This document shows positions 19,041 to 58,466 of a stretch of DNA of 64,000 bases, piece after piece. Source of the DNA: Flammulina velutipes (Eukaryota > Basidiomycota > Agaricomycetes > Agaricales > Physalacriaceae); NCBI GenBank assembly GCA_011800155.1, contig JAALGH010000011.1, positions 992,001 through 1,056,000 on the forward strand, in the 5' to 3' direction. Position 1 is the first letter of the stretch, and the number at the start of each line of letters is the position of its first letter. The notes under the pieces are model-generated. The model did not search any database. It was not told the origin of the DNA and saw nothing but the letters and a program-made list of their open reading frames with translations. A program made the translations under genes and the position numbers.

Positions 19041-19079
19041 AACAGACGTAACAATAAGTACAACAACTTCATTCGCATC

Positions 19080-29452: not shown

Positions 29453-29565
29453 AAGAGAGTGGGTGCTAAATAAAATTCAATATACGAGTATTCAGTGCGC
29501 CTATTTTACTTACCAGTGGACGGAAGACTATGTGGTTGGTTTTAAATTTTGAGTAGGTGTGGTCC

Positions 29566-36357: not shown

Positions 36358-37665
36358 TTACTCTTCGTCAGAGACAGAAACAATCTTCTCCTCAATTCCA
36401 GTTCCATTTGCTCCAAGCATCCAAACGGACGCGCCTACCTCGAGCTTAGGCCCGAAGAGAAGTCGAATGTCCCTACCACCATCCGTAGTAGCCAGCTTGT
36501 GTGCCTTCGTCCTCTTCTGAGGTGGCTTGTTAGTCTGAATTTCTGCAAGCTGGCGGCGGAAGATGCCACGAGGAGGGCAGTAGGACTGAGAACGAAATTA
36601 GCTAAGTTAAAGGTTTCATGGACTGGTTCCAACATACCTCAGCAGCTGGTGTGCTACGGAACCTGTAAGGGCCCGTGGACTCGTCCGGGCATGCCGCATC
36701 TCCTCTGTTGAAAATATCGGCACATAGCGGGGCGTTCATAATGCTTGCATCGTTTCCTACTTCTGAAGAATAGTCAGTTTTGGTTTGGGTCTCCGACAAT
36801 GAGGATAGAATACAGACGGCTGTCGAAATGCATCGCCGTTAGAGTCAGCGACGTATAAAATATGAGTCCTTACAATCGATCCCCGTCGCCCAAGCCTTGG
36901 GCGGCGTAGAAGTTTCCCAACGCAGCGCCGTGTCTGCCTGGATGAAATGAGTGAATACGTGGTTCGGAACTCATGATATATCTTACCGTTTTCTCCGGGA
37001 TCAGCACAGCGCGTCGTACCGCTCTGAGCAATGGGGTCTCCTCCAGTGTAACGAGCAACGATGCACTGCAGATGAACAGAAGACTGTTAGAACGCAATAA
37101 GGTGACAAGTATATAAGACGTACACCCAGGCCACCGTCATAGCTTGCAGAAAAAGAACGATGAGCTAGAACCAGAACATGTAGCGAAGAATACAAACGTG
37201 CTAGCATAAGGGACTTCGTCACAGTCGGTACCCGAAGGGCAGTAGTTGCGGCTTCCGCATCCGATGGCCTGAAAGTTCTTGTCAGAAATGTGAGGGTCCT
37301 ACAGTCAGTGCGTAAACAGACCTGGCGCCTCAGTGTGGCGGCCGTCTGTTGAGTATTGGGGTTGGGCCGGTCACTGCTTGAATTTGGATCGTAGTGCAAG
37401 ACTTAGCCCATCGTAAGAGAAATATAGATACACATTTAGGGCTAATTGATGACTTACACGCGTCAGGATTATTGAAGCCATGACAGAACGCCGCGTTGCA
37501 ATGGTTGTCGCACCTATAACAATGAGGGTCAATAATGCTACAGAGGTAACTTGGAGGATGGGCATACACATCGGGGTACGAGTTGCAGTCCAGAATCATG
37601 GTCGGCACCTGTGCACTGATCATAACAGCAAGTGTGGCGGCGACGACAAGGGCAGAGAAAAACAT
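36358..37665 (-). CDS. Secreted NucA/NucB-like nuclease, pair 1
   Basis: Predicted secreted DNase-like protein. ATG 37665 starts a signal peptide (MFFSALVVAATLAVMISAQ). A Cys-rich region follows (DCNSYPDV, CDNHCNAAFCHGF), then HYDPNSSSDRPNPNTQQTAA and the nuclease-like core: GCGSRNYCPSGTDCDEVPYAS, YDGGLGC, RHGAALGNFYAAQGLGDGDR. The CDE-P-[YF]-A and GG features recall the NucA/NucB family. The C-terminal basic Arg/Lys stretch and GRDIRLLFGPKLEVGASVW lead to SDEE and stop at 36358-36360. Ten exons are needed, including one of 19 nt and one of 2 nt (36818-36819). All exons read through without stops. The gene is head-to-head with the small gene at 38104. Confidence 0.7.
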
Positions 37666-38103
37666 GTTGTTGAATAGAGGCGAGCTGTAGCTATAGAAGG
37701 TCTGGATGTCCCAAATCTGCTTCAACCACCCATCCTACGACGTCTTTTATATGATAGAATATGCATTGCAGGAGGCTTAGGACAACAGTCTCGCCGACTT
37801 CTACGATGAGACCGACTTCGGCGGCAGGCTGGACGTTAGACGCGCAGTTTAGCTGGCCGCGTACATGGAGATGGACCAATATCCACTCGCTATAAATAAA
37901 AAAATCGACTCAGATGACCAAGTGAAACTGCAGCAGGAAGAAAATACTGACTAGTAGCTCCAGTCCCGTACTTCTCGGAATCAAGTTCGACGAACTCCCA
38001 TGTCCACATGTCATGAACGCCATTGAAAATTTTTATAGACTGTAGTTGACGCCCAGCGCCCAGCGCTCACCATCAGTCGTTTCGCAGTTTACCTTTTACC
38101 ACC
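37666..38103. promoter_or_regulatory. Shared divergent promoter, pair 1
   Basis: A 438-bp region between the two start codons. A TATA box for the nuclease lies on the minus strand at 37745-37751 (TATAAAA), about 80 bp from its ATG. Confidence 0.65.
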
Positions 38104-38580
38104 ATGCTCCACAAAGTTCTCCTCTATTGCACCTACCCCATCCCAGAGGCCAAACTCTCTTCCCTCCTCGGTACATTCAACGCCTCCCCGTACTGTCCCC
38201 AGCCAGACAACATCACTCCGTCTGCCCCAGCAGATGCGACACATGGGATGACGCCAGCAGAGATATACACACACCACTGGAGCAAGATCCCGGAGACGGC
38301 TGGCATCTCCGGAGATCCCGTCGTCGTTCTAGACGAACAGACCCTCAACGACGACACCGTCGTCGTCGTCTCGCAGGTCGAAGATAATACGCCGCTGATG
38401 CTGCGTTTCGTGCCAGACCAAGCGCCTCTTGCGGTTTCCAACTTGCAGATTGGGAATCAGGACTTGACGACGGTACGTACCATTTCATGCAGTCAATGAG
38501 TGTTATTGATTCCTTGATAGTATATCAATTCGAAGGACGACGACGGAGTGTGGCGTAGTTTTCCTCCCAAGAAGACGTAG
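38104..38580 (+). CDS. Small cytosolic partner protein (DUF6924-like), pair 1, 142 aa
   Basis: Two exons, 38104-38472 and 38521-38580, end in DDDGVWRSFPPKKT and TAG. There is no signal peptide or membrane segment, so the protein should be cytosolic. The C-terminal half follows the pattern of DUF6924: VVVLDEQTL, then LMLRFVPDQAPLAVSNLQIG and DGVWRSF, compared with the bacterial pattern of a FVVD-x-x-TL strand, an RVVP strand, NLSIANMDF and DGVFRGF. This resemblance is from memory and needs a profile search. The reading past the donor (TVRTISCSQ) is intron sequence. Copies are at 48522-48998 and 56154-56617, with broken copies at 35190, 51180 and 53534. Always next to a nuclease gene, it may bind or neutralise that nuclease; this is inference. 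Confidence 0.65.
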
Positions 38581-38908
38581 AGTCGCAGCAAAATTGTGCA
38601 TCCCAATGCTACGTGAAATACGCAGTTACGTCCAATTGTCTCCCAGCTGCACATGTGGATCTATGGAGGGTGTAAGAACAAATTGTAGTTTTAGATCAAC
38701 GTTCTGCAAGCCTTGTTTGCCCTTGTTATGTATGAAAGCTGCTGTGAACGATAGCTGTAATAAACTTACGGGCTCGTTCGGCTCGAGGTCATGTAGAGAA
38801 GTTCTCAGCGTTATAGCCCGATTTTCAAGTAGTGTTACAATGTGCTACATTCCACATAAACAGAGATACAGTGCCAACAAATCATAATAAAATAAGGGAC
38901 GACGTCCT
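38581..38908. other. Intergenic, 3' flanks of partner gene and H2A
   Basis: No gene or repeat recognised between the two converging genes. Confidence 0.5.
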
Positions 38909-39573
38909 CTACTCTTCGTCGCCTTTGCCTCCTTTACTATAGGAGGATGAGCGAGTGTGAGGCAGAAGAAAACAAACAACGTACGCAGATTTGGAGGGCA
39001 AGAGCTGAGACTCGATGTGGGGAACAACACCACCTTGCGAAATGACGACGTCGCCCAAGAGCTTGTTTAATCTAGAGAGAGATGAGCGGAAAGCAAAGGT
39101 AACAGCGATATCGACGTACTCTTCATCGTTACGGATGGCAAGTTGCAAGTGACGGGGGACGATACGCTGCTTCTTGTTATCACGAGCAGCATTACCAGCT
39201 AGCTCCAAGATTTCAGCAGCGAGGTACTCGAGGACGGCGGCGAGATAGACTATATAACAAGATTAGAAGACATCAAGGGGCTGGAAGCAAGAACGTACCA
39301 GGAGCGCCAGCACCAACACGCTGGGCGTAGTTGCCCTTCTTCAACAGACGGTGGACACGACCAACGGGGAACTGGAGACCCGCCTTGGACGAACGCGACA
39401 TCGACTTGCCAGCTTCACCGCCAGCTTTGCCCCCTGAGGCGGCCTTTCCGGATTTTCCTGTACAAGAGTTGAGTCGTCGGAAATGGGGCGGATGCTTGCC
39501 CAAGTACCTTTGCCAGACTACACAAGCATTGTCAATACTTTGCAAAGCAAAATGTTGAGTGAAAACTCACCAT
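38909..39573 (-). CDS. Histone H2A (variant tail)
   Basis: Core nucleosome histone. The fold is complete: [92 protein letters not shown]. Exon 1 is just the ATG (39571-39573), followed by a 53-bp intron, a 10-nt exon 39508-39517 (SGK plus one base), a 50-bp intron and exon 39299-39457. Two or more further exons end at TAG 38909-38911. After [10 protein letters not shown] the tail is KGGKGDEE, so the C-terminal SQ-E-hydrophobic phosphorylation motif normal for fungal H2A is absent. DEELNKLL and the lack of H2A.Z signatures place it with canonical H2A rather than H2A.Z. Confidence 0.88.
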
Positions 39574-40141
39574 AATAATACAACGGCGACGAGGATGAGT
39601 GAGCTGGTGGTGGTTGAGAGCGAAGGCGTTGATGTCAACAAAACAAAGCACGCGGATGCCTTATATAGGTGTATTTTCCGTCACGTGCTGATGGCGATCG
39701 CGTTGTGGCGCATTGTGTGCAGTTGACATGCGAAATAATGGACATCCGATACATCTTCGGCTCTGGAGACATGGAACGAAAAGGATTGGAAGTATATCCA
39801 ACTCTGCGGAAGAAAGGAAGCTCTCGTATCGGCCGGATCGGCCCAGAGTTTCATGAAAACGATTCTCGGGAACTGCCGAATAGGGTTTCTCTCAACAACT
39901 ATCAGCGTCAACTACAGTTCGTGATACTGTTTTACTACCACTCACCAGGAGGGAATCTGCCTCTGCTAGAGCTGTGATAGTCATTATCGAATGCGAGTTG
40001 ACGGTCACTCCAAGAGCACATGAACTGCCCAGAAAGTCTTCTGACCTTCTATCCTTTCTCGCGCGCATGGATTACCCTCGGCGGATAATCACTTATATAA
40101 TGAGTTCCATACCCCAAGAGTGCTCGCTTCCCTCTGAAATG
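39574..40141. promoter_or_regulatory. Divergent H2A / carboxylesterase promoter region
   Basis: TATATAA at 40094-40100 lies 42 bp before the esterase start. The segment from about 39965 to 40141 is nearly identical to 45740-45915 upstream of the second esterase, so this promoter was duplicated with the gene. No other coding block. Confidence 0.6.
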
Positions 40142-42200
40142 ATGCTTTGGGTCTTAACTCTTTTCTCATTCTTTTCCGCGAGTCTAGGCGACAAAACCTT
40201 CATCGTCGACACGGGCTATGCAAAATATCGTGGAAACCACACATATCCGAACAATGTTGCCTACCTGGGCATTCCGTACGCTGAACCACCGTTGGGGGAT
40301 CTAAGGTACAGGGCTCCGGTTCCCTTGAACGTCACTCGCGTCTCGGAGGAGGCTTCGGATGTGGTGGATGCTACGTCATACGCAGATTTTTGCATCCAAG
40401 GATCCCCTTCATGTTTGTTTAACATTCCCTCACTCACCAATGGAGCAGTCCTCTAACTTCAGTGACAGCTGGAATAGCAGGAGCTGGATCCGAGGACTGT
40501 TTGAAGGTGGATATCTATGCTCCTACCAAAGGAAAGAATTGTACGTCCTCTGTGAAGATATTAGATCTCAGCTAAATTACGTCTCAGTACCTGTCCTAGT
40601 TTACTTCCACGGCGGCGGTTATGTCTATGGAAATCCTGCGAGTTGGCCGTTCGATCATTGGGTAGACCAAAGCCCCAACGTAGTCATCGTCTCCGTGTAT
40701 TACCGTCTCTCCTCGTTTGGCTTCCTAGCACTTCCGGCGCTTCGGGATCCCACTTATGGCGACCTCAACGCCGGCTTTCTTGATCAGATAGAGTCTCTCC
40801 GATGGGTCAAAAAGAACATCGCAGCATTTCGCGGGAATCCGGGGAGGATAACAATTAATGGACAGAGCGCAGGTGGTGGCTCAGTGCAATTGCACCTTGT
40901 CGCTGATCTTGGTGGGGAGACGCTATTCCATGGTGCAATTGCGCAGAGTGTGTATAGGGCACCGGTCCCCTCATTAGATGACCAAAAGGTCGGTATGCAT
41001 TGTAATTTCGAATTATTGCAGTTGGTTTGTCTGACACCATGTCTTACAGCCGCTGCACGATTTCTTCCTAAAGGAAGCGGGCTGCACCGTAGGTGACGCG
41101 GCATCTGTGCTGGCGTGTCTTCGTGCTGCAAATATCAGCACTCTCGCGCGCGCTCAAGACTTGCCGCGTGGCGATAGATCCCTGTAGGTAGGCATGTTAC
41201 TACCATTGCATCTAACTCATCCTCTCGTACAGAACCGGGCCGTATAACTCTTTCCATCCTGTTATCGATGATATTATTCTCAAGGAGTACCCAACCAAAT
41301 CAATCTTAGCCGGCGACTTCGCGCAAGTTCCTCTCATCGTCGGGTACAGTCGACACCATGGCTAAATAGTGAAGATGTGTCCTGACGCTCACCATAGAGC
41401 GACATCAAACGAGACGAGTGTTGCTTCGAACGACATTAGGACTGCAATCCAACTCGCCTTCCCTAAAATGACAGAATCGGATGTCACGAAACTTATTGAG
41501 GTCAGCTAACGCGTCGACACATTCTTCTTCAAACAATTGATATGCCATTTCAGCAATATCCCGTGTCTGATTTTGACTCTGCTGATCAGCAATTACGTGT
41601 TCTTACCGGCCATTCTGTGTTTATCTGTGCAGTGAGTTCTACCAATACACTTCATACCGTGTAAGTCCTGATGAGTCTCTTAGCAAACCATACTAGGAGA
41701 AGCGTATGCTGATGCTCGTCTCCCTGTTTGGGCGTATCGTTACAACCAACGCAATCCAACGTCCTCCAGCCTGACTGTTGATCACGCAGCTGAGAACTGG
41801 ATGATGTTCAGAGGGAGTAACACCGGGTGATTGGGCTTCTCATTCCACTCGTTCTCACTACTGACAATGTCTGAACAGTGTCAACGGGACATTCACTCTA
41901 AGCGATATGACGCCAACGGAGACTGCATTCGCTGAAGAACTTATTGCGTACTGGCTGTCGTTCGTGCGCTCTGGAGATCCAAATAGGTTCAAACTCAAGA
42001 ATGCACCTACGTGGGCACAGTTCGATAGTAAAGGGCTAGAGCGGATTGTGTTACAGCAAAAGAATACGACTGGTACGACGAGGTTTGACGCTGTTGGACT
42101 CGGACATGGTGGCAGCGGCAGCTACATGGAGCCCGAGCCTAAAAAAGAGGCCGGACGCTGTAGATATGTTGCTGGAGTCGCAGAGAGGCAACAGAATTGA
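40142..42200 (+). CDS. Secreted type-B carboxylesterase/lipase, copy 1
   Basis: Predicted secreted ester hydrolase of the carboxylesterase/lipase alpha-beta hydrolase family. The signal peptide is MLWVLTLFSFFSASLG. Start 40142 is chosen because copy 2 conserves only this Met and a TATA box lies just upstream; the Met at 40139 is also possible. Family blocks are VAYLGIPYAEPPLGDLRYRA, the disulphide-region GSEDCLKVDIYAP, oxyanion hole HGGGYVYG, nucleophile NGQSAGGGS, and C-terminal DHAAENW with the probable catalytic His. Around eight introns join in frame to TGA at 42198-42200. Potential N-glycosylation sites are many (NHT, NVT, NGT). Paralogue at 45916-47975. Confidence 0.82.
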
Positions 42201-42449
42201 AACAAACGTTAACGTTGTACTCGCATAACCAAAGAGAGGACCTCACTCCTATAAGAAAGAAAGGTTTATGACTTATAGTTCGCTACACTTGTAAAAACTG
42301 GTCAAAATGGCCTTGCGCTTTACGGCACAAGAAAGGCTGCCCGCCGCATCATAATTTGCCCAAAAAGGAACTTTAGTTTTGCCGCCTCCGGAAGCGCCTA
42401 CTGCATTTCTCTTTCCTTCCATTCGTTTGCACCTGGTGGTTTGCACTTT

Positions 42450-44116
42450 ATGTCCTTTCGCAGCTGGCTGGCTCTGCCAGACCGCAGAGAACTAACACTG
42501 CTCATCTTTTCACTGACAGTCTTCACGCTCGCTTTCAACTTTAGCAGTTCTATTCGACACGCCGCCACACCAAGTGTCCTCCTAAATCACCTCGGTTTTG
42601 GTACATCCAGGCTTGTTGGCACCGATGGCAGACGACTTCTACGGTACCGGGATACCCTAGAAAACTTCATTTACGGCGAGTTTGAATGGGAGCGACATCA
42701 TATCGCCGGCCATGGTTTCGAACGAACTCAGCAGCTCGGCGTCGGCGACCACAATGCGACATGGGCCTCGTCAGACGACTATGGCATCCTCACGCACAAT
42801 GCTGAAAAGCGGGCGGCTGGTGGCCAGGGATTCTGGACATGGGGAAACGACATTCCAACGTCGACGATGGTAAAACATACTCCAGGTGCGTCCCCAAGCA
42901 ATACACGCTCTTTCTGTACTCACGGTTTACTAGGCTACTCTATCTTCGACAATGTCGTTCTCTTCAAGGGTACCGTCTCCATTGTTACCGACACTCCTGA
43001 AGACTATCCCGCACTCAACTCGATCGTTTCTGCACGCGGTCCAGGACGGAACAACTGGGAAGTTATATCGACCGTCGATGCTCGAGGCAAGTTCGGGACA
43101 TACGGTAGCGTGTGAGTGCAGTCATTCTACGTTCTACCCCTCTGGACTAATTGCATTGTTAGGCTGAATGGTGTCAGTTGGCTAGTCGCGGATCCAGTCT
43201 CGGATAATGCCACTCTTCCTGCACTCTGGCGGACATATAGCTCCTTGGACCCAAACATAGACAGCGACGGGCGAACGATTCTCCCCGCACCTCAGCGCAT
43301 CTTCTTTCCGCATATCAACGCACTCGCAGACGAAACTCGACGGTCCGACGTCGGCTTCCATCCACTTACCTTCAAGGTTGCCTTCCCCCACATGAACCTC
43401 ATGTTCCGCGAGGACTGGGAGGACTACCACTCCCTCGATTTTCCCTTCGTTCTCGAACGCGTCGTAGTCGCAGACCGGACCGCCGCATCTCATCTAGAAC
43501 CCTTGCCTACGGCACACGCATCTGCTTTTGACCACCCAGCCTCTGCTCATTGGTGGGAGCCTATAAAAAAGAACGTGCATGCATACTTTTCAGACGTCAA
43601 GAGGAAGCGGAAGAAGATCATCACCTACATCGAGCGGCAGCTGGCGAGGTCTGGTCCCAAGTTGAAGGATGATGACCACGCTAAATTATTGAGAGCTCTG
43701 GCGAAGATGGCGTCGAGCTATGGGTATGAAGTTCACGTCGTCTCGGCGTTGGACGAGGAGACGGAGTGGAGTGATCGGTTGCAATCCATCGTGCAGTCTA
43801 CGGTAGTGGTGGGCATACACGGTGTGGATCTGATGGACGCTATCTGGATGAACCCGACAGAGCAGACGACTTTGGTCGAGCTATTTCCTGCAGATTCGTT
43901 TGTGAGGGACAGAGAGGTTGTCCTGCATGGACTTGGCATGAATTATGTTGCTGTGGACAATGCACAGTGCGTATTCATTCATCCTTTCCTTCTCGCTGCT
44001 GATGTTTCTTTAGTAAATACACTATAGATGATAAAGTCTCTCTTCCTGGTGATAGCGAGATATCGGTTAACGCGGACCTTGTTGTGCAAGTCATACGGGA
44101 GGCCTTGTCGAGATGA
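42450..44116 (+). CDS. GT61-family glycosyltransferase, type II membrane protein
   Basis: Predicted Golgi glycosyltransferase of the GT61/DUF563 type (the family including EOGT and plant xylosyltransferases); acceptor unknown. ATG 42450 gives a short cytosolic tail and a signal anchor (LTLLIFSLTVFTLAFNF). Blocks are NVVLFKGTVSIVTD, RIFFPHINA, VLERVVVADRTAAS, then KIITYIERQL, EVHVVSALDEETEWSDRLQS, the donor-binding-like VVGIHGVDLMDAIWMNP, TTLVELFPADSFVRD and LGMNYVAVDN. Exons are 42450-42885, 42934-43111, 43163-43966 and 44014-44116. It sits between the duplicated esterases and on the same strand. Confidence 0.72.
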
Positions 44117-45380: not shown

Positions 45381-45915
45381 ACCCTATGTACTTCGCCGTG
45401 TCGTACATATGTAGTATTCCAAACCAATGACATTGTTGATTTATACAATTTTTCAATATTCCGATGCTGTGAATGTAATCCCTGGAATGGGTGGATAATG
45501 GAATCCGGACCAACCAGACGTGACCATTTTGAATGTACGAAGCCTGTTCAGAGAGTATCCTGTTGACACGTCCGATCAGCGACAACACAGTCCGACCTGA
45601 GCGTCTGATCTAGTGCAGATTTACTCTTTCTCTCGTCCGATTTTTGACTTCTGACTTTTCACTGGGCTCCAACAACCATAGGCATCAATTACAGCTCATA
45701 TCGTTTCCTCACCAATCACTTGCAGAGACCATGCCTCTGCTAATGCTGTGATACTCACTATCGAGTGCGAGTTGACGGTCACTGCAAGAGCACATGAACT
45801 GCCCAGAAAGTCTTCTGACCTTCTATCCTTTCTCGCGCGTATGGATTACCCTCGGTGGATAATCACTTATATAACGAGTTCCACACCCCAAGAGTCTTTG
45901 CTCCCCTCTGAAATC
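45381..45915. promoter_or_regulatory. Esterase copy 2 upstream region
   Basis: From about 45740 the sequence repeats 39965-40141. TATATAA at 45868-45874 is 42 bp before the start codon. The part before 45740 holds nothing recognised. Confidence 0.55.
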
Positions 45916-47975
45916 ATGCTTTGGGTCGTGACTCTTTTCTCGTTCTTTCCCGCGAGTCTAGGCGACAAAACCTTTATCGTCGACACGGGCTATGCAAAAT
46001 ATCGTGGAAACCACACATATCCGAACAATGTTGCCTACCTGGGCATTCCGTACGCTGAACCACCGTTGGGGGATCTAAGGTACAGGGCTCCGGTTCCCTT
46101 GAACGTCACTCGCGTCTCGGAGGAGGCTTCGGATGTGGTGGATGCTACGTCATACGCAGATTTTTGCATCCAAGGATCCCCTTCATGTTTGTTTAACATT
46201 CCCTCACTCACCAATGGAGCAGTCCTCTAACTTCAGTGACAGCTGGAATAGCAGGAGCTGGATCCGAGGACTGCTTGAAGGTAGATATCTACGCTCCTAC
46301 CAGAGGAAAGAATTGTACGTCCTCAGTGAAGTTATTAGATCAGAGCTAAATTACGTCTCAGTACCTGTCCTGGTTTACTTCCACGGCGGCGGTTATGTCT
46401 ATGGAAATCCTGCGAGTTGGCCATTCGATCATTGGGTAGACCAAAGCCCAAACGTAGTCATCGTCTCCGTGTATTACCGTCTCTCCTCGTTCGGCTTCCT
46501 TGCGCTTCCTGCACTCCAGGATCCCACTTATGGAGACCTCAACGCCGGCTTTCTTGACCAGATAGAGTCTCTACGATGGGTAAAGAAGAACGTCGCCGCA
46601 TTTGGTGGGAATCCGGGGAGGATAACGATCAACGGACAGAGCGCAGGTGGTGGTTCGGTACAATTACACCTTGTCGCTGATCTTGGTGGGGAGACGCTAT
46701 TCCATGGTGCAATTGCGCAAAGCGTCTACAGGGGACCAGTCCCTTTGGTAGATGACCTAAAGGTCAGTATCCTTGCAGATTATTTGGTTTCTCCTATTTT
46801 AAAATTCCGTCTTGTAGCCCCTGCATGATTTCTTCGTAGAGGAAGCAGGATGTGCCTTGGGTGACGCGGCATCTGTGCTGGTGTGTCTTCGTACTGCCAA
46901 TATCAGCACACTTGCGCGCGCTCAAGACTTGCCGCGTGGCAATAGATCTCTGTATGCATGAGGCTTACCATTGTCGAGCGACATTTTACTCATCTCCGCA
47001 TACAGCACCGGGCCGTATAACTCTTTTAATCCTGTTATTGATAACACCATTATCAAGGAATATCCAACCAAGTCGATCCTAGCCGACAACTTTGCGAAAG
47101 TTCCTCTGATCGTAGGGTACGGTCTGTAACACAGCTGAATAGCAAATCTGTTCTGACTATCGACATAGAGCAACGTCAAACGAGACAAATTTTGCCTCGA
47201 ACGACCTGAGGGCCGCAATCCAACTGGCCTTCCCTAAAATGACAGAATCGGATGTCACGCAACTCATAGAGGTCAGTCGACGCGTTGACACGTCCTTCTT
47301 CAAACAATTGACGTACCATTTCAGCAATATCCCCTGTCTGATTTTGACTCTGCTGATCAGCAACTGCGTGTTCTTACTGGTCAATCTGTGTTTATATGTC
47401 CGGTGCGTAGGATCAGTAACTCGCTTTACCGCCCTACTCTTAACTAGCCTCTAAGCAAACTATCTTGGGGGAGGCATATGCTAACGCTGATCTTCCTGTT
47501 TGGGCATATCGCTATAACCAACGCAACCCAACGACTTCGGACCCGACTGTCGGTCACGCAGCCGAGAACTGGATGATGTTCAGAGGCAGTAACACAGGGT
47601 AATTTAGCTTCTCGTTCCACTTGTTCTCACCACTGACAATGTTGGAACAGTATCAACGGGACATTCACTCTCAGTGATATGACGCCTGTGGAAAATGCCT
47701 TCGCTGAAGAACTTATTGCATATTGGCTGTCGTTCGTGCGCTCTGGAGATCCCAATACGTTCAAATTGAAGACTTCACCTACATGGGCAGAGTTCGATAG
47801 CGAAGGGCTGCAACGGATTGTTCTACAGCACAGTAATACGACTGATAGGACAAGCTTCGAGCCTTTTGGACTCGAACAGGGCGGCAGCGGTGGCAGCTAC
47901 ATGGAGACCGAGCCCGAGAAAGAGGTCCAGCGCTGTAGATATCTTACTGGTATCACAGAGAAGCAACAGAGTTAA
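45916..47975 (+). CDS. Secreted type-B carboxylesterase/lipase, copy 2
   Basis: Tandem paralogue of 40142-42200, nearly identical in the first 800 bp and more diverged after that. Signal peptide MLWVVTLFSFFPASLG. It has the same motif series: VAYLGIPYAEPPLGDLRYRA, GSEDCLKVDIYAP, HGGGYVYG, NGQSAGGGS, PLHDFFVEEAGC, TGPYNSFNPVID and HAAENWMMFRGSNTG. Introns are at equivalent positions, including GTCAGTCGA at about 47272 ahead of QYPLSDFDSADQQLRVLTGQ. Stop is at 47973-47975. Its exon 1 and promoter match copy 1 better than the 3' part, which suggests gene conversion or a recent exchange at the 5' end. Confidence 0.82.
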
Positions 47976-48521: not shown

Positions 48522-48998
48522 CTACGTCCTCTTGGGTGGAAAACTACGCCACACTCCATCCTCGTCTTTCGAATTGATATACTATCAAGGAATCAATAAC
48601 ACTCATTGACTGCATGAAATGGTACGTACCGTCGTCAAGTCCTGATTCCCAATCTGCAAGTTGGAGACTGCGAGAGGCGCCTGGTCTGGCACGAATCGCA
48701 GCGTCAGCGGCGTATTATCTTCGACCTGCGAGACGACGACGACTGTGTCGTCGTTGAGGGTCTGTTCGTCTAGCACGACGACGGGATCTCCAGATATGCT
48801 AGGCGTCTCTGGGATCTTGCTCCAGTGGTGTGTGTATATCTCTGCTGGCGTCATCCCATGTGTCGCATCTGCTGGGGCAGACGGAATGATGTTGTCTGAC
48901 TGGGGACAGTACGGGGAGGCGTTGAATGTAGCGAGGAGGGACGAGAGCTTGGCCTCTGGGATGGGATGGGTGCAGTAGAGGAGAACTTTGTGGAGCAT
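48522..48998 (-). CDS. Small cytosolic partner protein (DUF6924-like), pair 2, 142 aa
   Basis: Exon 1 is 48998-48630 (123 codons) and exon 2 is 48581-48522, ending in DEDGVWRSFPPKRT. The protein is nearly identical to the pair 1 copy, with changes such as LLATFNASPYCPQSDNIIPS and PETPSISGDP. No signal peptide. The in-frame Met five codons upstream (49013) is not used in the other copies, so 48998 is preferred. Head-to-head with the nuclease at 49484. Confidence 0.65.
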
Positions 48999-49483
48999 GG
49001 TGGTGGAAGGCAAACTGCGAAATGCAGTGACGCTGATAGATCAGTGTTGGGCGCTGGGCCCCAATCACGGTAAAGTTGGTTCTGTAAAAATTCTTATTGG
49101 CGTGCAGGACATGTGGACATAGGGTCGAGCTTCTTTGCCTGCCAGCTTCTCTCCAGTTTGAATGACGAGGAGAGTGGAACAAGAGTTTTGGCGGAACTAC
49201 TAGTCAGTATTTTTCTCCGCTTGGACTTTTCCTGGTCATCTGAGCCTGTTTATCGTTTGTAGCGGGTGAATATGGCTCCATATTCATTTGCGCGCGCAGC
49301 CAAATTGTGCGCCAAACGTCAAGCATGTCGTCGAAGTCGGTCTTAATGGTGGACATCGGCGAGGCCGCTATCCGAGACCTCCTACCATGCAGATTCAAGC
49401 GTATAAAAGAGGCTTTAGGATGAGTGGTTCAAGCAGATTTGGGATATCCAGACCTTCTACAGCTCACCTCTGTATCCAACATC
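48999..49483. promoter_or_regulatory. Shared divergent promoter, pair 2
   Basis: 485 bp between start codons. TATAAAA at 49402-49408 serves the nuclease, 82 bp before its ATG. The segment next to the partner gene (GGTAAAGTTGGTTCTGTAAAA) recurs in pairs 3 and 4. Confidence 0.65.
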
Positions 49484-50792
49484 ATGTCTTTTTCTGCTCT
49501 TGTCATCGCCGCCACACTTGCCACTATGATCAGTGGGCAAGCAACCTTTGTCCTCGACTGCGCCTCGTACCCCGACGTGTATGCACATTCTTCTTGTTGC
49601 CTCTGTAATATTGTTGACACTCAGTGCTGTAGCTGCGACAACCATTGCAACGCGGCGTACTGTCACGGCTTCGATAATCCCAACGGATGTAAGTCATCAA
49701 TATCCACTCGTGTATCTTCTTATTCTTATTCTTATGATTCTCTAAGACTTCCACTACGATCCAAACTCAAACAGTGACCGGCCCAACCCCAATACTCAAC
49801 AGACAGCCGCCACACTAAGGCGTCAGGTTTGTACCCGTTCAAGTTTAATACCTCGGAAATTGTTGACCATCTCTTCCCAGGCTATCGGATGTGGCAGTGG
49901 CAATTACTGCCCTTCGGGTACCGACTGTGACGAGGTCCCTTATGCTAGCACGTTTGTACCTGCTGCTGCTTGTTCTGAATCTGAGCTTATCATTCTCTTT
50001 TTTGCAGTTATGATGGTGGCCTGGGTGTACGTCCAATTTACTCGTCTACTCAATGTGTTCTAATGACGTTTTGCTGACAGTGCATCGTCGCTCGTTACAA
50101 TGGTGGAGACCCTATCGCTCAGAGTGGTACGACACGCTGTGCTGATCCCGGACAAAACGGTAAGGTCATGAGTGTCCTGCCGAACAATATATGTACCTAC
50201 TACCCTCAGGCAGACACGGATCCGCGTTAGGCAGCTTCTACGCCGCCCAAGGCTTGGGCGACGGCGCTCGATTGTAAGCCATACACGTTAAATCATATTT
50301 CATCTGTTGCTGACTGGAACGGCAATACCTTTGTAACAATAGCCGTCAGTGTTCTATTATGAGACAAGACTCAAACCAAATCTAACAATTCTTTAGAGAT
50401 ATCAATTCCCATAAGCAGCCCGCTATGTGTCGATCTTGCCAACAGAGGCGATGCGGCTTGCCCAGACGAGTCGACGGGACCCTACAGGTTCCGTAGCACA
50501 CCGGCTACTCAGGTGTGTTGAAGCTAGTCAAAGCGTACTTCCAAACCGCTGACTCTGATCCCAGTCTTACTGTCCTCCTCGTACCATCTTTCGCCGCCAG
50601 CTTGCTGAAGTTCAGGTGAACAAGCCACCTCAGAAGAGGACAAAGGCACGCAAGATCGCTACAACGGATAGTGGTAGAGACATTCGTCTTCTCTTCGGGC
50701 CTAAGTTTGAGGTAGGCGCGTCGGTTTGGTTGCTCGGAGCGAATGGAACTGGGATTGAGGAGAAGATTGTTTCTGTCTCTGATGAAGAGTAA
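49484..50792 (+). CDS. Secreted NucA/NucB-like nuclease, pair 2
   Basis: Signal peptide MSFSALVIAATLATMISGQ, then DCASYPDV|CDNHCNAAYCHGFDNPNG, FHYDPNSNSDRPNPNTQQTA, GCGSGNYCPSGTDCDEVPYA, YDGGLGCIVARYNGGDPIAQ, HGSALGSFYAAQGLGDGARF, GDAACPDESTGPYRFRSTPA and the C-terminal RDIRLLFGPKFEVGASVWLL. Stop TAA is at 50790-50792. The 2-nt exon is at 50343-50344, between introns 50274-50342 and 50345-50396. It is complete and probably functional. Disulphide-rich and basic; the reaction (endonucleolytic DNA cleavage) is inferred from the family resemblance only. Confidence 0.7.
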
Positions 50793-51179
50793 CTTTCTTT
50801 CAAAGGCGTCTCATAAATAGCTACTTAACTCCTTCTATCAATTTGCGGATATTCCAAATGACTATGGCTCAAGTCACAGTAGGAAGTGAGTATAGGTGAG
50901 GACTGAGTACTGAGTACTGAGTACTGAGGCCTGAGGAAATGAGACTGAGTACTTATGTGGCTGTGCCGCCCACGTGTAACTACAGCTCCTTGTTGCCATT
51001 CTACTTGTCCGCTACTCTCGATATCGTCCAAGGCCGTCATTAAACCTGCCGCTAGTCATTGTGCATATCCTAAAGCGTCGACGCACACAACCTCCGTCTT
51101 CGCTCAATGAACTCTGCAAATTCTATCCTAAACAAAGAACGCCTGTCTGGAATATTTTCCTCCTGGACCTCCCGTCGTC
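50793..51179. other. Intergenic spacer of the tandem array
   Basis: Contains a segment (GTGGCTGTGCCGCCCACGTG and following) that recurs in altered form near 53275 and 55848 after the other nuclease genes, marking it as part of the duplicated unit. An ACTGAGT direct repeat (GTACTGAGTACTGAGTACTGAG, at about 50908) is present. Confidence 0.5.
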
Positions 51180-51391
51180 CTACGCAAACCTACGCCACAC
51201 TCCATCTTCATCCTTCGAGTGGGTGTACTATGGTAGTATTAATATGAATCACGACCAAGTAAAATGGTACGTACCGTCATGTCCTGGTTCCCAATCTGCA
51301 GGGGTTGTTCGTGTACATCTCTGCTTGAGTCCTCCCATATGTCGGTAGATGGACTGACGTTGTCTCGCTGGAGGCAGTATGGGTGGAGCAT
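51180..51391 (-). pseudogene. Partner gene with large internal deletions, pair 3
   Basis: ATG 51391 reads MLH, then jumps to PYCLQRDNVSPSTD, then to LQIGNQDMT and an exon DEDGVWRRFA ending at 51180. About two-thirds of the 142-aa protein is missing, including the VVVLDEQTL strand and RFVPDQ, although the remaining frame stays open. It is unlikely to fold like the intact copies. Both splice sites remain. Confidence 0.7.
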
Positions 51392-51876
51392 GGTGGTGGA
51401 AGGCAAACTGCGAGACGCGGTGACGCTGATGGATGAGCGTTGGGCGCTGGACCCCAATCACGGTAAGGTTGGTTCTGTAAAACTTTCACTAGCGTTCGTG
51501 ACATGTGAACATAGGGTCGAGCTTCTTTGCCTGCTAGCTTGTTCCTAGTTTGAATGGCGAAGAGAACGGGACCAGAGATTTGGTGGAGCTGCTGGTCAGT
51601 ATTTTTCTGCCTGCTTGAATTTTGTTTCGTCATCTGAGTGGATTTCTTATTTATAGCGAGTGGATACGACTCCATTTCTATTCGTTTGGCCCGCTAAATT
51701 ACGCGTCGAACCGTCTATCCTGCCGCCGAAGTCGATCTCATCGTAGAAATCGGCGAGACTGCTGTCCGAGGCTCCTACAATGCAAATTTTAGCGTATAAA
51801 AGAGGATTTAGGACGAGTGCTGGAGGCAGATTTGGGACATCCAGACTTTCTACAGCTCACCTCTTCACTGAACAAC
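51392..51876. promoter_or_regulatory. Shared divergent promoter, pair 3
   Basis: 485 bp. TATAAAA at 51795-51801, 82 bp from the nuclease ATG, the same spacing as pair 2. Confidence 0.65.
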
Positions 51877-53179
51877 ATGTTTTTCTCTGCCGTTGTCGTC
51901 GCCGCCACACTTTCCACGATGATCAATGCGCAGGCGCCAGTTTTTACTCTCGACTGCAACTCGTACCCCGACGTGTACGTACCGTCTTCTCAGTACCTCT
52001 GTAATATCATTAACGCTCAACGCTGTAGGTGCGACAATCATTGCAACGCGGCGTACTGCCACGGCTTTAACGATCCCAATGCATGTGGGTCCTCCACTTT
52101 CCTTTGCAAGCATTCCTCTGAGTATACTGTAAGACTTCCACTATGACCCGAACTCGAACACCGACCAGCCCAACCCCAATACTCAGCAGACGGCAGCCAC
52201 ACTCAGGCGTCAGGTTTGTTTATGCCTTCAAACCTGAAAATTTATTGATTAAGCTTCTTTCAGGCTATTGGATGCGGGAGCGGCAATTACTGCTCTTCTG
52301 GCACCGATTGTGACGAGGTCCCGTATGCTAGCACGTTTGTGGCTTTCTCTGCTTGTTGATTCGAACTCATCTATTTTTTTTGGCAGCTATGATGGTGGCT
52401 TGGGTGTAAGTCCAATCCTACTTGTCATCTTCATGCGTTGTAATAGTGTTCTCTTTGTCTCAGTGCATCGTTGCTCGTTACACTGGACCAGACCCCATTG
52501 CTCAGAGCGGTACGACGCGTTGTGCTGATCCCGGACAGAACGGTAAGATAAATCATGGAGTTGCGAACCACATATCTACCCATTACATCCAGGCAGACAC
52601 GGAGCCGCGTTGGGCAACTTCTACGCCGCCCAAGGCTTGGGCGACGGGGATCGATTGTAAGTCGCTCACCAAAGCATCTTTCGTATGCTGCTGATGTTAA
52701 CGGCGATGTTTTTGTTACAATAGCCGTCAGTATTATATTTCAATCTGATACTTGAACAAAATCTGACAATTCTTTAGAGGTAGCACTCGACGCCACCGCT
52801 GCGAACGCTCCGCTATGCGCCGACCTCGCAAACAGAGGCGATGCGGCTTGCCCCGACGAGTCGTCGGGTGCATACAGGTTCCGTAGCACACCCGCTGCTC
52901 AGGTATGTTGTTAGTCAAAGTGTACTTCTAAACCGCTAACTTTGATCCCAGTCTTATTGCCCTCCCCGTGGCATCTTTCGCCGCCAGCTTGCTGAAATTC
53001 AAGCTAACAAGCCGCTTCAGAAGAGGACGAAGGCACGCAAGCTCGCCAAAACGGACAGTGGTAGGGATATTCGTCTTCTCTTCGGGCCTAAGCTCGAGGC
53101 AGGCGCGTCCGTCTGGATGCTTGGAGCAAATGGAACTGGAATCGAGGAGAAGATTGTTTCCGTCTCTGACGAAGAGTAA
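51877..53179 (+). CDS. Secreted NucA/NucB-like nuclease, pair 3, 273 aa
   Basis: Best-resolved copy. Exons are 51877-51974, 52029-52084, 52134-52213, 52264-52334, 52387-52405 (19 nt, YDGGLG), 52464-52542, 52593-52656, 52724-52725 (2 nt), 52778-52902 and 52952-53179. They total 822 nt; without the 2-nt exon the frame fails. Signal peptide MFFSAVVVAATLSTMINAQ, Cys-rich segment, core CSSGTDCDEVPYAST and CIVARYTGPDPIAQSGTTRC, HGAALGNFYAAQGLGDGDRF, then VALDATAANAPLCADLANRG and a C-terminal basic plus beta-rich tail ending VSVSDEE. Its partner gene is deleted internally, yet this gene has no lesion. Confidence 0.72.
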
Positions 53180-53533
53180 ACATCCTTCAAAGACGTCTCA
53201 TTCATAGCCAAACTTCACTCCTTCTGTTAGTATTAATTCCTACTAATACACGTATGTGATTTTCATTGAAGGGAGTGGCTGTGTCCCAAGCCCACGTGCG
53301 ACTACAACTTCTTGTCCAATGTCATCGATCTAAGGCTCTCTTATTCAACCTGCTCTCCCTACTAGTACCGCCTGAGAATAATCTGCACACAAGTTACGAC
53401 GGTCTCACTGCTACATATCCAAGTTGTCTCGCGTCGACTCTGTCTGGCTCAGTCTTCGCCCAATAAAAATCTGCAAGTCCAATCCTAAACACCGAACACT
53501 TTGAAACCTTCCCTTCTCCCCCGTCCCCTTCTA
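53180..53533. other. Intergenic spacer of the tandem array
   Basis: Spacer with the GTGGCTGTGTCCCAAGCCCA segment shared with 50950 and 55848. No gene. Confidence 0.5.
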
Positions 53534-53958
53534 CTACGCGAACCCGCACCACACTCCATCTTCATCCTTCCAGTGGGTGTACTACGGGAGTATCGATATG
53601 AATCATGACCAAGCAAAATAGTACGTACCGTTCAGCTCCTGGTGTCCAATCTGCAGGTTGGAGACCGCGGGAGGGCGCGGGTATGAATCGCAGCATCAGT
53701 GGCTCACCGCCGTGTCGTCTACGATGGTATCTTCGTCTAGTACGACGACGGGATCTCCGGAGATGTCAGGCGTCTCTGGGATCTTGCGCCAGTGGTGTGT
53801 GTATATCTCTGCTGATGTGTCGCACCTGCCGGGGCAGATGGAGTGATATTGTCTGGCTAGGGACAGGATGGGGGGCGTTCAGAGTAGCGAGCTCAGATGT
53901 ACAAGAGCTTGGCTTCTGGGATGGGGTGGGTGCAGTAGAGGAGAGCTTCGTGGAGCAT
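53534..53958 (-). pseudogene. Partner gene with stop and frameshifts, pair 4
   Basis: ATG 53958 reads MLHEALLYCTHPIPEAKLLY and then TGA. Further on, HHWRKIPETPDISGDPVVVL and LMLRFIP are recognisable in other frames, and the exon with DEDGVW-like sequence ends near 53534. Multiple indels (for example in the QAPLAVSNLQ region) confirm loss of function. Confidence 0.75.
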
Positions 53959-54404
53959 GGTGGTAGGGGGCGGACTGCGAAATGCGGTGACGCTGATAGA
54001 TGGGCGCTGGGCTTCGATTACGGCAAAGTTGGTTCTGTGAAATATTCACTAGCGTGCGGGGCATGTGGACATAGAGTCGAGCTCCTTTGCCATGATCTCA
54101 AGTTTGAATGGCGAGGAGAACGAGACGAGAGATTTGGTGGACCTCTCCGGTCAGTATTTCCTACCTGCTTGAAAGCTTCATCATCTGAGTCGATTTCTTA
54201 TTTATAGGGAGTGGATATAGCACCGTATCTAATCGCGTGGCCAGCTGAATTACGCGCCAGACTTCTAGCCTACCGTCGAATTCATCGTAGAAATTGGCTG
54301 TCCGAGGCTCCGAGGCTCCTACAATGCGAATTCAGCATATAAAAGAGGTTTTAGGACGAGTCCTCCAAGTAGATTTGGGACATCCAGACCCTTCCCTCAT
54401 CAAA
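53959..54404. promoter_or_regulatory. Shared divergent promoter, pair 4
   Basis: 446 bp. TATAAAA at 54338-54344, about 67 bp from the nuclease ATG. Confidence 0.6.
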
Positions 54405-55720
54405 ATGTTTTCCCTTGCCTTTGTCGTTGTCGCCACACTTGCCACTATGATCAGTGCACAGGCGCCGATTTTTACTCTCAACTGCAACTCGTACCCCGAC
54501 GTGTATATACCACTCCCAATCTCATCTGCATATCATTGACGCTCAATACCATAGGTGCGATAACCAGTGCAACGCGGCGTACTGTCACGGCTTTGACAAC
54601 CCCAACACATGTAAGCCCTCAATGTCCATTTTTCTTTGCATGTATCAACTATACTATAAGACTTCCACTACGACCCGGGCTCGAACACCGATCGGCCCAA
54701 CCCCAAAACTCAGCAGACGGCCGCCACACTCAGGCGTCAGGTTTGTTTACGCCTCCAAATGCCAACATTTTCTGACGACCTTCTTTCAGGCCATCGGATG
54801 CGGGAGCGGCAATTATTGCCCTTCCGGCACTGATTGTGACGAGGTCCCATACGCTAGCACGTTGGTACCCGTCACTGCTTGTTCTGAATTTGAGCTCATC
54901 ATTCTCTTTCTCGCAGCTTTGACGGTGGCCTGGGTGTACGTCTGATCAATTTGTCTCCTTATTGTGTTCTTACATTGTTCTGTTCATCTGTAGTGCATCG
55001 TTGCTCGTTACACTGGAACAGACCCCATTGCTCAGAGCGGTACGACGCGCTGTGCTGATCCCGCACAGAACGGTAAGATAAACCACGGAGTTTCGAACCA
55101 CATATTTACCCATTACATCCAGGCAGACACGGAGCCGCGTTGGGCAACTTTTACGCCGCCCAACGCTTGGGCAACGGCGCTCGATTGTAAGACAGGTCTT
55201 GTTAAATCCTATCTGTTGCTGACTGGAATGGCGATGCCTTCATTACAATAGCCGTCAGTACTCTATTTCGATTTGATATTTACACAACGTCTGACGATTC
55301 TCCAGGGGTAGCACTCGACGCCACTGCTGCGAACGCCCCGCTATGTGCCGCTCTTGCAAACAGAGGTGATGCAGCCTGCCCAAACGAGTCGTCGGGCCCC
55401 TATAGGTTCCGTAGCACACCGGCTGCTCAGGTATGTTTAAACTTTAAATTACTAGTCAAAAAGTACTTCTGAATCGCTGACTTTGATCCCAGTCTTACTG
55501 CCCTCCCCGTGGCATCTTTCGCCGCCAGCTTGCTGAAAGTCAAGCTAATAAGCCACCTCAGAAGAGGACGAAGGCACGCAAGCTCGCTAAAACGGACAGT
55601 GGTAGGGATATTCGGCTTCTCTTTGGGCCCGAGCTCGAGGTAGGCGCGTCGGTTTGGATGCTCGGAGCGAATGGAACTGGGATCGAGGAGAAGATTGTTT
55701 CTGTCTCTGACGAGGAGTAA
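54405..55720 (+). CDS. Secreted NucA/NucB-like nuclease, pair 4
   Basis: Signal peptide MFSLAFVVVATLATMISAQ. Blocks in order: NCNSYPDV|CDNQCNAAYCHGFDNPNT, FHYDPGSNTDRPNPKTQQTA, GCGSGNYCPSGTDCDEVPYA, FDGGLGCIVARYTGTDPIAQ, HGAALGNFYAAQRLGNGARF, VALDATAANAPLCAALANRG and RDIRLLFGPELEVGASVWML. Stop TAA is at 55718-55720. The 2-nt exon is at 55252-55253, and here the following exon starts GG so the joined codon is Arg rather than Gln. Intact although its partner is a pseudogene. Confidence 0.7.
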
Positions 55721-56153
55721 ATCTCTTTCAAAGGCGTCTCTTAAATAGCCACCATTCACTCCTTCGATCAATATATGGATACTTTCAATGACTCTGGATC
55801 AGGTTACAGTACTACAGGAAGACGTACACAAAATTACTGGGGAGTGGCTGTGTCAGTGGTTCGTTGCCGACGGCCGCTCACGTGCACCACCTTGCACCAC
55901 CATCTCGATTCTCCACTGGTTGCCATTCTTAGTCTTAGTCTATGTCCGCTACCGTCGATATCGTGCAAGGCCGTCATTAAACCTGCTCTCCGTAACAGTA
56001 CCGCTCGAGGATAACTCGCACGCAAGCTAAGACGTTTTCACTGCTACATATGCAGGTTGTCACGCTCAGTCTTCGCGTCAACTTGCAGATTTGTATTGAA
56101 AATCCAATCCTAGTAAACTCCGAACACTTTGGGCTCTACCCCGTCCCCTTCTA
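55721..56153. other. Intergenic spacer of the tandem array
   Basis: Spacer like those at 50793 and 53180, containing GAGTGGCTGTGTCAGTGG. No gene. Confidence 0.5.
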
Positions 56154-56617
56154 CTACGCGAAGCCACGCCACACTCCATCTTCGTCCTTCGAATGGATGT
56201 ACTACGAAACTTTCAATATGGAACATAGGCAAGTATAGTGGAATGTACCGTCGTCAACTCCTGGTTCCCAATCTGCAGGTTGGAGACCGCAAGAGGCGCC
56301 TGCTCGGGTATGAACCGCAACATTAGTGGCTCGTCGTCCTCCCCTTGCGAGACGACGAGCACCGTATCGTCTACGATGGTCTGTTCATCCAATACGACAA
56401 TGGGATCTCCAGATATGCCAGCCGTCTCTGGGATCTTGCTCCAGTGGTGGGCGTAGATTTCGGCGGGAGACATTGCATGTGTCGCATCCGCTGGAGTAGA
56501 TGGAGCGATGTTGTCCGGCTGGGGACAGTATTGGGAGGCGTTGAACGTAGCGAGGAGGGCTGATAGTTTGATGTCTGGGATGGGGCAGGTGCTGTAGAGG
56601 AGGACTTTGTGCAACAT
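56154..56617 (-). CDS. Small cytosolic partner protein (DUF6924-like), pair 5
   Basis: Exon 1 is 56617-56249 (123 codons) and exon 2 from about 56202 to 56154 ends early in HSKDEDGVWRGFA. It is the most diverged intact copy: LLYSTCPIPDIKLSALLATF, HHWSKIPETAGISGDPIVVL, DEQTIVDDTVLVVSQGEDDE, LMLRFIPEQAPLAVSNLQIG. The frame is open throughout, and the conserved strand pattern matches the other copies. Here the partner is intact while the adjacent nuclease carries a stop. Confidence 0.62.
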
Positions 56618-57169
56618 GATGGCAAGAGACAGAGCTTGGAGTAGTAGTCATCATGATTTCCGGGCATCGATTGGGGTAAGTGGGTCGCGAAGTCTATTCA
56701 TTACTACTTATGACCTCATAGGAAGAGAATCACTGGTTTAGATGGGCGGATGAATCATGAGTTTAGTTGAAGCTAAGTCACTCGTCTGTAATTTCCTTCA
56801 GCTTCAGAGATATGTGACTGACTATTCGAGCTTAGTTGCGATGACTTGAGATGGCAAGGTCAACAGACCGTTCCGTCTGATCACCCCAAAACGGCGCCAC
56901 ATCCGTGCCAATACGTCTTCGAATCGTCGAAGTAGGTCTTAACGTGGAAATGAGCCAGAGAATTGCCAGAGCCATCCACAAGACCTTCACTTGCAACTTG
57001 AAGGACTTCATTGTATCCAAGATCCGCGGCTATAGCTCTCTTCAAGAACGACCGGTAATATAGTCGGTGATTCCGTGGAAATTGAGACCACCGTCCAATC
57101 ATTAACGTCTATAAAGCTAGGATAACTTGTACGGGATAATTAGCTCTTCGTGCTACTCTCAATTCTGAA
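56618..57169. promoter_or_regulatory. Shared divergent promoter, pair 5
   Basis: 552 bp, the longest of the five. A TATAAAG near 57109 is the likely TATA box of the nuclease copy. Confidence 0.55.
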
Positions 57170-58466
57170 ATGATTCTCAGCTTTGTTGCCTTTGCCGCCG
57201 GCACTGCCGTCACCCTTGCTGCTCGGGTCGGTACGCAGGCGCCGCCCACCTTTGTTCTGAACTGCACTCTCTACCCCGACGTGTAAGTCTTGTCCTCGTC
57301 TCGTCTTTGATCAAATTCTCAATATTCGATACCTTAGCTGCGACAACCATTGCAACGCAAAGTACTGTCACCATATCATCAACGCAAATTCGTGTAAGAA
57401 AGCTCCAGACACCAGACTCACAGTCTCTGAACGCTCTCAGACTTCCATTACGATCCGAAATCAGCAAGCGACCAGCCCAATCCTAAGACGAAGCAGACTG
57501 CTGCCCAACTGAGGCGCCAGGTCCGTTGTGCGCACTGACTAATTCAAGTTTATTTTGACGAACACTTATTACTAGGCTATCGGCTGCGGGGGTACCAATT
57601 ACTGTCCCAAGGGCACTGACTGTGACGAAGTTCCATATGCTAGCACGTTCGTAATCTCTAGTAGTTCACCTTCCTCTTCTTCGGTTGAATCCATATGTTC
57701 TGTAGCTACGACGGTGGCCTAGGCGTAAGTTCAATTCACTTTCACACTGTTTACGGCTGACGAGAGCGATGAATTCTTCACAGTGCATTGTCGCTCGCTA
57801 AAAAGGAACAGATCGTATCGCTCAGAGTGGTACAACGCGCTGCGCCGATCCTCAACAAAACAGTAGGGCTCAGTAATTCACGAAAGACATTTTCTCATCC
57901 TATTCAGGTCAGCACGGAGGCGCATTGACTGCCTTCTATGCTGCGAAGAAGCTGGGAGATGGAGATAGATTGTACGTTATAAGCTTTTAAATTTCACACA
58001 TTACTAACTTCGTTTTTGACAGCCGTTAGTAGCCGCTAATTGCTATTCTATACTGAAGTGAGCCCTAAATAATCTTTCAGAGGTCGCAGTTGATACAGTC
58101 TCCAAACTCTGTCTCGCTCTCTCTACCCGTGGAGATGCTGCTTGCCCCGACGAATCCACTGGTCCTTACAGGTATCGTAGCACGCCGGCTACCCAGGTAT
58201 GTCAGAAAGCGCTGTTATGGTCAGACACCATTCCTGATACAAACAACCAGTCCTTCTGCCCTACCCGCAACCCCAAAGTTTTTGAGTCTGAAGCGAGCAG
58301 GCCCAATGAGAATACCAAGACAAGCAAACGCGCCACTACGGACAGTGGTAGAGAGATCCATTTGCTATTTGGTCCTCAGTTTGAGATGGGTGCATCAGTT
58401 TGGATCCTTGGGAGCAACGGGACTGGGATCGAGGAGAAGATAGTTTCAGTCGTGGACGAAGAATAA
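57170..58466 (+). pseudogene. NucA/NucB-like nuclease with premature stop, pair 5
   Basis: All exons of the family can be found, with signal peptide MILSFVAFAAGTAVTLAARV, CDNHCNAKYCHH, CGGTNYCPKGTDCDEVPYAS and YDGGLGCIVAR. Directly after CIVAR the codon that is TAC in the other copies is TAA (57799-57801), cutting the protein in the nuclease core. Downstream exons (HGGALTAFYAAKKLGDGDRF, GDAACPDESTGPYRYRSTPA, GASVWILGSNGTGIEEKIVS) are still well preserved up to TAA 58464-58466, so the stop is recent or is a sequencing error. The 2-nt exon is at 58023-58024. Confidence 0.7.

Follow-up and report, generated by a model that had tools for sequence, protein, structure and literature searches.

Does a fungal gene pair, in which a nuclease gene with a putative signal peptide stands head to head with a gene for a small protein lacking one, encode a toxin and its antidote? 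The question is raised by five such pairs, here named A to E, in a 64,000 nt stretch of the Flammulina velutipes genome (contig JAALGH010000011.1, positions 992,001-1,056,000; genome 38.1 Mb, 23 contigs), hereafter the window, for which a sequence-only reading had proposed an effector-immunity or toxin-antidote system. The loci, the families and the duplication were confirmed, the co-occurrence of the two as working genes was not, and the interpretation is partly supported: the two families could be assigned and a protective partner ranked first among the explanations considered, with inhibition of the nuclease by the partner staying a proposal. At a probability of roughly 0.45, the best reading is that each unit encodes a secreted NucA/NucB DNase and a cytosolic inhibitor belonging to DUF6924.

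Gene models and family assignment

Copies were aligned and their introns resolved, giving one gene structure common to all five nucleases (ten exons, introns of 45-69 nt, conserved phases) and a partner gene of two exons with a single 47-48 nt intron. Spliced models were required for the family calls, as unspliced or roughly joined forms of the locus proteins score below the Pfam cut-off; the unspliced frames of partners A and E reached 21.7 and 19.4 bits against PF21962. Spliced nuclease C matched NucA/NucB (PF14040) at 47.7 bits (cut-off 23.8). For spliced partner B the match was to DUF6924 (PF21962) at 40.1 bits (cut-off 24.4), its best stretch corresponding to profile positions 60-129 of 129.

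Two motifs had been ascribed to every nuclease; DCDEVPYAS is present in all five, and YDGGLG in A, B, C and E, with FDGGLG in D. The DCDE and an Asn residue within QNGRHG or ENGRHG are present in A-D (D95, E96 and N134 in nuclease C), and in nuclease E the DCDE lies before, and the Asn behind, a premature stop. The B. subtilis residues equivalent to BlNucB Asp93, Glu94, Asn117 and His53 are reported to be needed for activity, which is lost when they are mutated (PMC5758888). By this sequence check, as distinct from a structural alignment, the Asp-Glu dyad and Asn are kept, and for these residues the loss that would have told against a nuclease was not seen. The region upstream of DCDE aligns poorly to NucB, and no counterpart of His53 was placed there.

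The N-terminus is hydrophobic in all five nucleases (maximum 12-residue Kyte-Doolittle mean within the first 30 residues 2.3-2.8 in A-D and 2.0 in E), and 12 cysteines occur in matching order in A-D, 8 of which lie ahead of the stop in E. From the leader and the cysteines the nuclease is predicted to be secreted. Partners A, B and E have no hydrophobic leader (maximum mean only 0.8-1.3), so the described contrast between a signal-bearing nuclease and a signal-less partner stands for these three. The partner length of 142 amino acids (aa) given for all pairs applies to A and B; E has 138 aa, and C and D are only remnants. Partners A, B and E are acidic (isoelectric point 4.4-4.7); of the nucleases, A, B and C are mildly acidic as well, and D is the only basic one.

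The nuclease models also contain a 2-nt exon (CC) flanked on both sides by introns of full length, conserved in all five copies and predicted from sequence only (36818-36819, 50343-50344, 52724-52725, 55252-55253 and 58023-58024). Without it the conserved C-terminal frame of the nuclease is lost.

Locus layout and duplication

Gene starts were resolved for all five pairs and agree with the divergent arrangement first described (Table 1). Repeat comparison likewise upheld duplication as a whole unit, with B-E in tandem; the unit repeats align at 79% over 2391 columns for A-B and 80% over 1872 columns for C-D. A TATA-like box lies 60-86 bp before each of the five nucleases. Beyond this box there is little sign of a constrained promoter in the sequences, because intergenic identity is near that of introns (0.71-0.79 vs 0.67-0.74 among A-D; 0.44-0.56 vs 0.53-0.56 in comparisons with E).

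Table 1. Coordinates of the paired genes and of two divergent intergenic regions (window positions).
Feature	Position	Strand	Gene start	Structure	Remarks
Nuclease A	36358..37665	-	37665	273 aa, 10 exons, intact	spliced model, active-site positions
Divergent intergenic region A	37666..38103			438 bp	TATA box 86 bp from nuclease start
Partner A (DUF6924)	38104..38580	+	38104	142 aa, exons 38104-38472 + 38521-38580	intact
Partner B (DUF6924)	48522..48998	-	48998	142 aa, exons 48998-48630 + 48581-48522	intact; Pfam 5.3e-10
Divergent intergenic region B	48999..49483			485 bp	TATA box 82 bp from nuclease start
Nuclease B	49484..50792	+	49484	269 aa, 10 exons, intact	spliced model, active-site positions
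Partner C	51180..51391	-	51391	remnant, most of DUF6924 region lost	lower end from the sequence-only reading and the end of the repeat match
Nuclease C	51877..53179	+	51877	273 aa, 10 exons, intact	Pfam NucA/NucB 2.3e-12, residues 64-158
Partner D	53534..53958	-	53958	remnant, 4-nt insertion, TGA at codon 22, deletions	lower end from the sequence-only reading
Nuclease D	54405..55720	+	54405	273 aa, 10 exons, intact	spliced model, active-site positions
Partner E (DUF6924)	56154..56617	-	56617	138 aa, exons 56617-56249 + 56201-56154	intact
Nuclease E	57170..58466	+	57170	10-exon structure kept; in-frame TAA at codon 119 (57799)	apparent pseudogene

Decay and selection

The two genes had been said always to occur together; as working genes they do not, both being intact in two of the five pairs (A and B), with an intact nuclease in four and an intact partner in three. 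Partner C has coding deletions of 55, 20, 11, 163 and 3 nt. Partner D has a 4-nt insertion and a TGA at codon 22, accompanied by deletions of 1, 10, 25, 5 and 2 nt. No coding lesion common to the two was found in the alignment, and they were therefore most likely lost independently. Nuclease E is an apparent pseudogene, although its TAA could be an assembly error.

Both genes are under purifying selection: pairwise Nei-Gojobori ratios of nonsynonymous to synonymous divergence (dN/dS) were 0.13-0.21 for the nuclease (ten pairs) and 0.13-0.15 for the partner (three pairs). Nuclease dS was 1.46-1.76 between E and the others and 0.42 for A-B; partner dS was about half of this (0.78-0.81 for E vs A or B, 0.19 for A-B), which hints at gene conversion in the partner. 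The nuclease tree grouped C with D (99%) and B with E (77%), and the partner tree separated A and B from C, D and E (100%), with D and E together at 54%. The B+E nuclease grouping disagrees with the partner split, and there is no strongly supported conflict between the two trees.

Amplification in tandem with decay of single components could also be the trace of a selfish poison-antidote element, a killer or drive acting against cells or spores without the partner, in which one intact partner, if cross-protecting, would protect against all copies. NucA/NucB domains do serve as toxins in bacteria (PMC3482391). Selection here is purifying, not diversifying, and this origin is judged very improbable. 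To our knowledge, spore killers do not usually work through a secreted toxin.

Distribution in the F. velutipes genome

A six-frame search of the genome with the partner (E up to 1) gave five matches, none outside the window: one each at A, B and E and two at D. It missed remnant C, and decayed remnants elsewhere in the genome could likewise be missed. The DUF6924 profile matched three times, at A, B and E, and matched none of 14 control genomes. All 38 exon matches from the nuclease protein search also lie in the window. In this genome, then, this nuclease subfamily was found only beside DUF6924 or its remnant, and the partner adjoins a nuclease at five of five known places, all copies of one unit.

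The PF14040 profile matched three other places in the genome (L040-L042, two on contig C3 and one on contig C9). L040 and L042, the two that were read, carry CDEFPFN and belong to a different protein type. Neither the partner search nor the DUF6924 profile search of the genome gave a match near any of the three. The PF14040 search missed the window's own intron-split nucleases, and other intron-split relatives could be missed in the same way.

DUF6924 and NucB in bacteria

Genome contigs scanned with a mixed alignment yielded 45 DUF6924 loci, which by record titles come from Actinomycetota (40), planctomycetes (3) and Bacteroidota (2). NucB was found at 0/45 of them (flanks of up to 6 kb, as far as the contig reached; profile E up to 0.01) with a profile that re-finds 27/30 NucB loci and may have taken in window pieces. 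PF14040 occurs somewhere in 16/44 DUF6924-bearing genomes (that of locus L050 being left out). It has 33 places there, and open frames 400 to 2562 aa long contain 24 of these; DUF6924 was found beside none of the 30 of these places that were searched (about 1.5 kb on each side, profile E up to 0.1). The iterated DUF6924 profile re-finds 44/45 DUF6924 loci, with 16 of its 64 matches window-derived; its scores for the fungal proteins (63-66 bits) are not independent, whereas the Pfam scores are. In the sampled bacteria the two families were thus found apart, which the sequence-only reading had held would count against it, and DUF6924 as an inherited immunity gene of bacterial NucB toxins was rejected, the families not having been found adjacent at these loci.

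Bacterial DUF6924 proteins belong to the same Pfam family as the fungal partner and have the NL-IGN and D-DGV-R-F motifs in common with it; they stand alone or form a domain of proteins of 266 to 1188 aa (lengths partly those of longest open frames). Their neighbours were surveyed at 37/45 loci as 75 heuristically called open reading frames, nine of them DUF6924-bearing themselves. The neighbourhood is heterogeneous: among the 25 of 107 families listed, none but DUF6924 occurs in more than two of the frames, and no recurrent toxin family is present. In the four plasmid regions opened, of seven matches, a DUF6461 gene, a barstar-family gene and an eccE gene were nearby in single cases, which is suggestive and no more.

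Long frames (604 to 1188 aa) with DUF6924 in them also occur at L068, L073, L078, L085 (Rhodococcus), L080 (Streptomyces) and L044 (Gordonia plasmid). No other Pfam domain was found at E 0.01 in the long proteins P0002, L073 and L080. Some Streptomyces plasmid matches fall in genes annotated as curculin-type lectin.

These counts bear on a plainer explanation, that the nuclease is an ordinary extracellular DNase for DNA scavenging or attack on extracellular DNA and that DUF6924, with an unrelated role, was copied along as a passenger across the common intergenic region. Duplication of the entire unit would account for the linkage without a functional reason; two of the five nucleases lack a working partner of their own, DUF6924 does without NucB at 45/45 bacterial loci, and the window is rich in other duplications, such as a carboxylesterase pair at 85%. 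Against this, DUF6924 was not found elsewhere in the genome, the gene order persists in pair E at a nuclease dS above 1.4, and three partners are under purifying selection. This explanation is a real possibility, if a lesser one than inhibition, and comes close behind because the linkage traces to a single event and the partner has been lost in two of the pairs.

Predicted fold of DUF6924

DUF6924 was modelled from bacteria and from the fungus, and in both cases the predicted structure matches the fold of the anticodon-binding domain in class II aminoacyl-tRNA synthetases (PF03129); such domains ranked first in the fold search. The fungal model covers exon 1 only (123/142 aa) and was built from an alignment that included bacterial members; five models were made, with a predicted local distance difference test score (pLDDT) of 49 to 77. 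An alpha/beta fold of this kind is inferred for DUF6924, and the assignment is new here. The match of the predicted fold stands without sequence support: PF03129 was not listed in the Pfam scan of partner B, and sequence homology was rejected at an hhalign probability of 0.1% (26 DUF6924 rows vs 27 PF03129 stretches, both small alignments).

Alternatively, DUF6924 may act on nucleic acid instead of the nuclease, as an orphan anticodon-binding-like domain that binds cytosolic RNA or DNA, for example to shield or sense a substrate, and is co-regulated with the nuclease; we consider this unlikely.

A relationship of the partner to ComJ/Nin, the Bacillus inhibitor family, was also rejected, there being no Pfam match to PF11033 and anticodon-binding domains coming first in the fold search. 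The Pfam scan of partner B (E up to 5) returned DUF6924 and a sub-cut-off DUF5994 only, under HMMER filters that drop most very weak matches. The ComJ/Nin structure (PDB 4MQD) is absent among the matches listed in the fold search, where an unlisted family is still possible, and ComJ was found in 0/16 NucB-bearing bacterial genomes. Searches of PDB sequences, PADLOC and NCBIfam gave no match; BFVD gave none with E at or below 0.001, and aminoacyl-tRNA synthetases fill its top three rows; and the IMG/VR scan gave 17 pattern matches and no relatives. A literature search for DUF6924, DUF6461 or the accession PF21962 found no mention.

Comparison with known systems

The closest precedent within the nuclease family is that of Bacillus, in which Nin, encoded next to nucA, inhibited NucA and NucB in mixed lysates (PMC5758888, PMC3482391). 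The nuclease family of the Bacillus system (NucA/NucB and Nin, or ComI and ComJ) is the same as here, but the fungal genes are divergent and spliced, and inhibition, measured there, is here proposed. ComJ is moreover listed as mostly beta (PMC3482391), in contrast to the alpha/beta, anticodon-binding-like model of DUF6924.

A NucA/NucB toxin domain is likewise common to the fungal units and to polymorphic toxin systems with Tox-ComI and Imm-ComJ or Imm-SUKH; the fungal protein differs in being short, with a leader of its own, and its partner belongs to DUF6924, a family unnamed in the excerpt of PMC3482391. That article already lists the NucA/NucB (ComI) toxin domain for basidiomycetes and suggests that some toxin domains transferred to fungi serve intra-specific conflict. 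A bacterial DNase toxin with two immunity proteins has also been described (PMC13392607).

The sequence-only reading knew of no described fungal system of this kind. This was too strong, since the yeast linear-plasmid killers PaT, zymocin and DrT (immunity proteins PaOrf4, KlOrf3 and DrOrf5) pair a secreted nuclease toxin with an intracellular immunity protein (PMC4431711). Immunity to PaT comes from the sole encoded protein without a signal peptide, PaOrf4, which is reported to form a complex with its nuclease and inhibit it. These killers are encoded on cytoplasmic elements, cut tRNA at the anticodon and have a chitin-binding subunit (PMC4431711), whereas the present nuclease is NucA/NucB-like, chromosomal and tandemly repeated; an uptake subunit was considered within the window only. 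Literature searches gave no title describing a NucA/NucB-DUF6924-type pair (on fungal immunity and DNase toxin systems) and no match (on NucA NucB in fungi).

Proposed mechanism

Under the preferred interpretation, each unit would encode a secreted, metal-dependent DNase of the NucA/NucB type and, on the far side of the divergent intergenic region common to both genes, a small DUF6924 protein that would stay in the cytosol and bind and inhibit it. The inhibitor would shield the producer's DNA from unexported enzyme, or from enzyme re-entering hyphae of the same individual, and the targets of the DNase would lie outside the cell: competitors, neighbours or extracellular DNA. Inhibition is the best guess because PaT and PaOrf4 are built alike and NucA and Nin provide a precedent within the nuclease family.

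Several observations are consistent with a protective partner. Both proteins score over their Pfam cut-offs, and the dyad and Asn match residues essential in NucB. Every DUF6924 match found in this genome lies next to this nuclease, both genes are under purifying selection, and head-to-head order is kept in pair E despite a nuclease dS of 1.46-1.76. Adjacent, co-inherited genes, as expected of a toxin and its immunity protein, are found at five of five loci (one founding arrangement, with both genes intact in two). The surviving partners are acidic, and losing two while keeping three would be tolerable for a protein acting in trans.

Other points weigh against it. Nucleases C and D are both intact, yet the partner of each is only a remnant. 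Because the five pairs copy one founding arrangement, linkage in this genome is a single observation, and in the sampled bacteria DUF6924 was found neither beside NucB (0/45 loci) nor, among the 25 of 107 neighbouring families listed for 37 of these loci, beside any recurrent toxin family. It gave no match to ComJ (PF11033) in the Pfam scan. Simple charge attraction to the partner is not indicated, because three of the nucleases (A, B and C) are mildly acidic too. Both genes are slow-evolving, and toxin-immunity pairs are often expected to change fast.

Other features of the window

The window is duplication-rich overall. A carboxylesterase gene is duplicated between pairs A and B (39893-42198 / 45670-47973, 85% over 2326 columns), and the stretch from pair A to the first carboxylesterase holds a histone H2A gene (38909-39566; C-terminal part by Pfam, the rest by eye). 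An inverted duplication of about 3.2 kb at 84% joins 852-4005 and 19035-22182. Further repeats are found at 9760-11424/25894-27571 and at 27806-29618/29761-31629, the latter with an F-box-like match at 27836-29476.

Implications

A secreted nuclease with a signal-less immunity protein is a known design, also in yeasts, within which DUF6924 would be a new candidate inhibitor family. The stronger claim, that DUF6924 is a new class of nuclease inhibitor in a chromosomal, tandemly amplified fungal DNase-immunity system, perhaps for allorecognition or killing, is doubtful at present; both families are also bacterial, and their pairing was not seen there. If the partner does not inhibit the DNase, the locus would be a clean case against reading co-duplicated neighbours as toxin-antidote pairs without a binding test. 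If it does, a role could be given to DUF6924, a domain of unknown function in bacteria and fungi, whose predicted fold differs from the one listed for ComJ/Nin, and filamentous fungi would gain a chromosomal counterpart of the killer-immunity pairs of yeasts.

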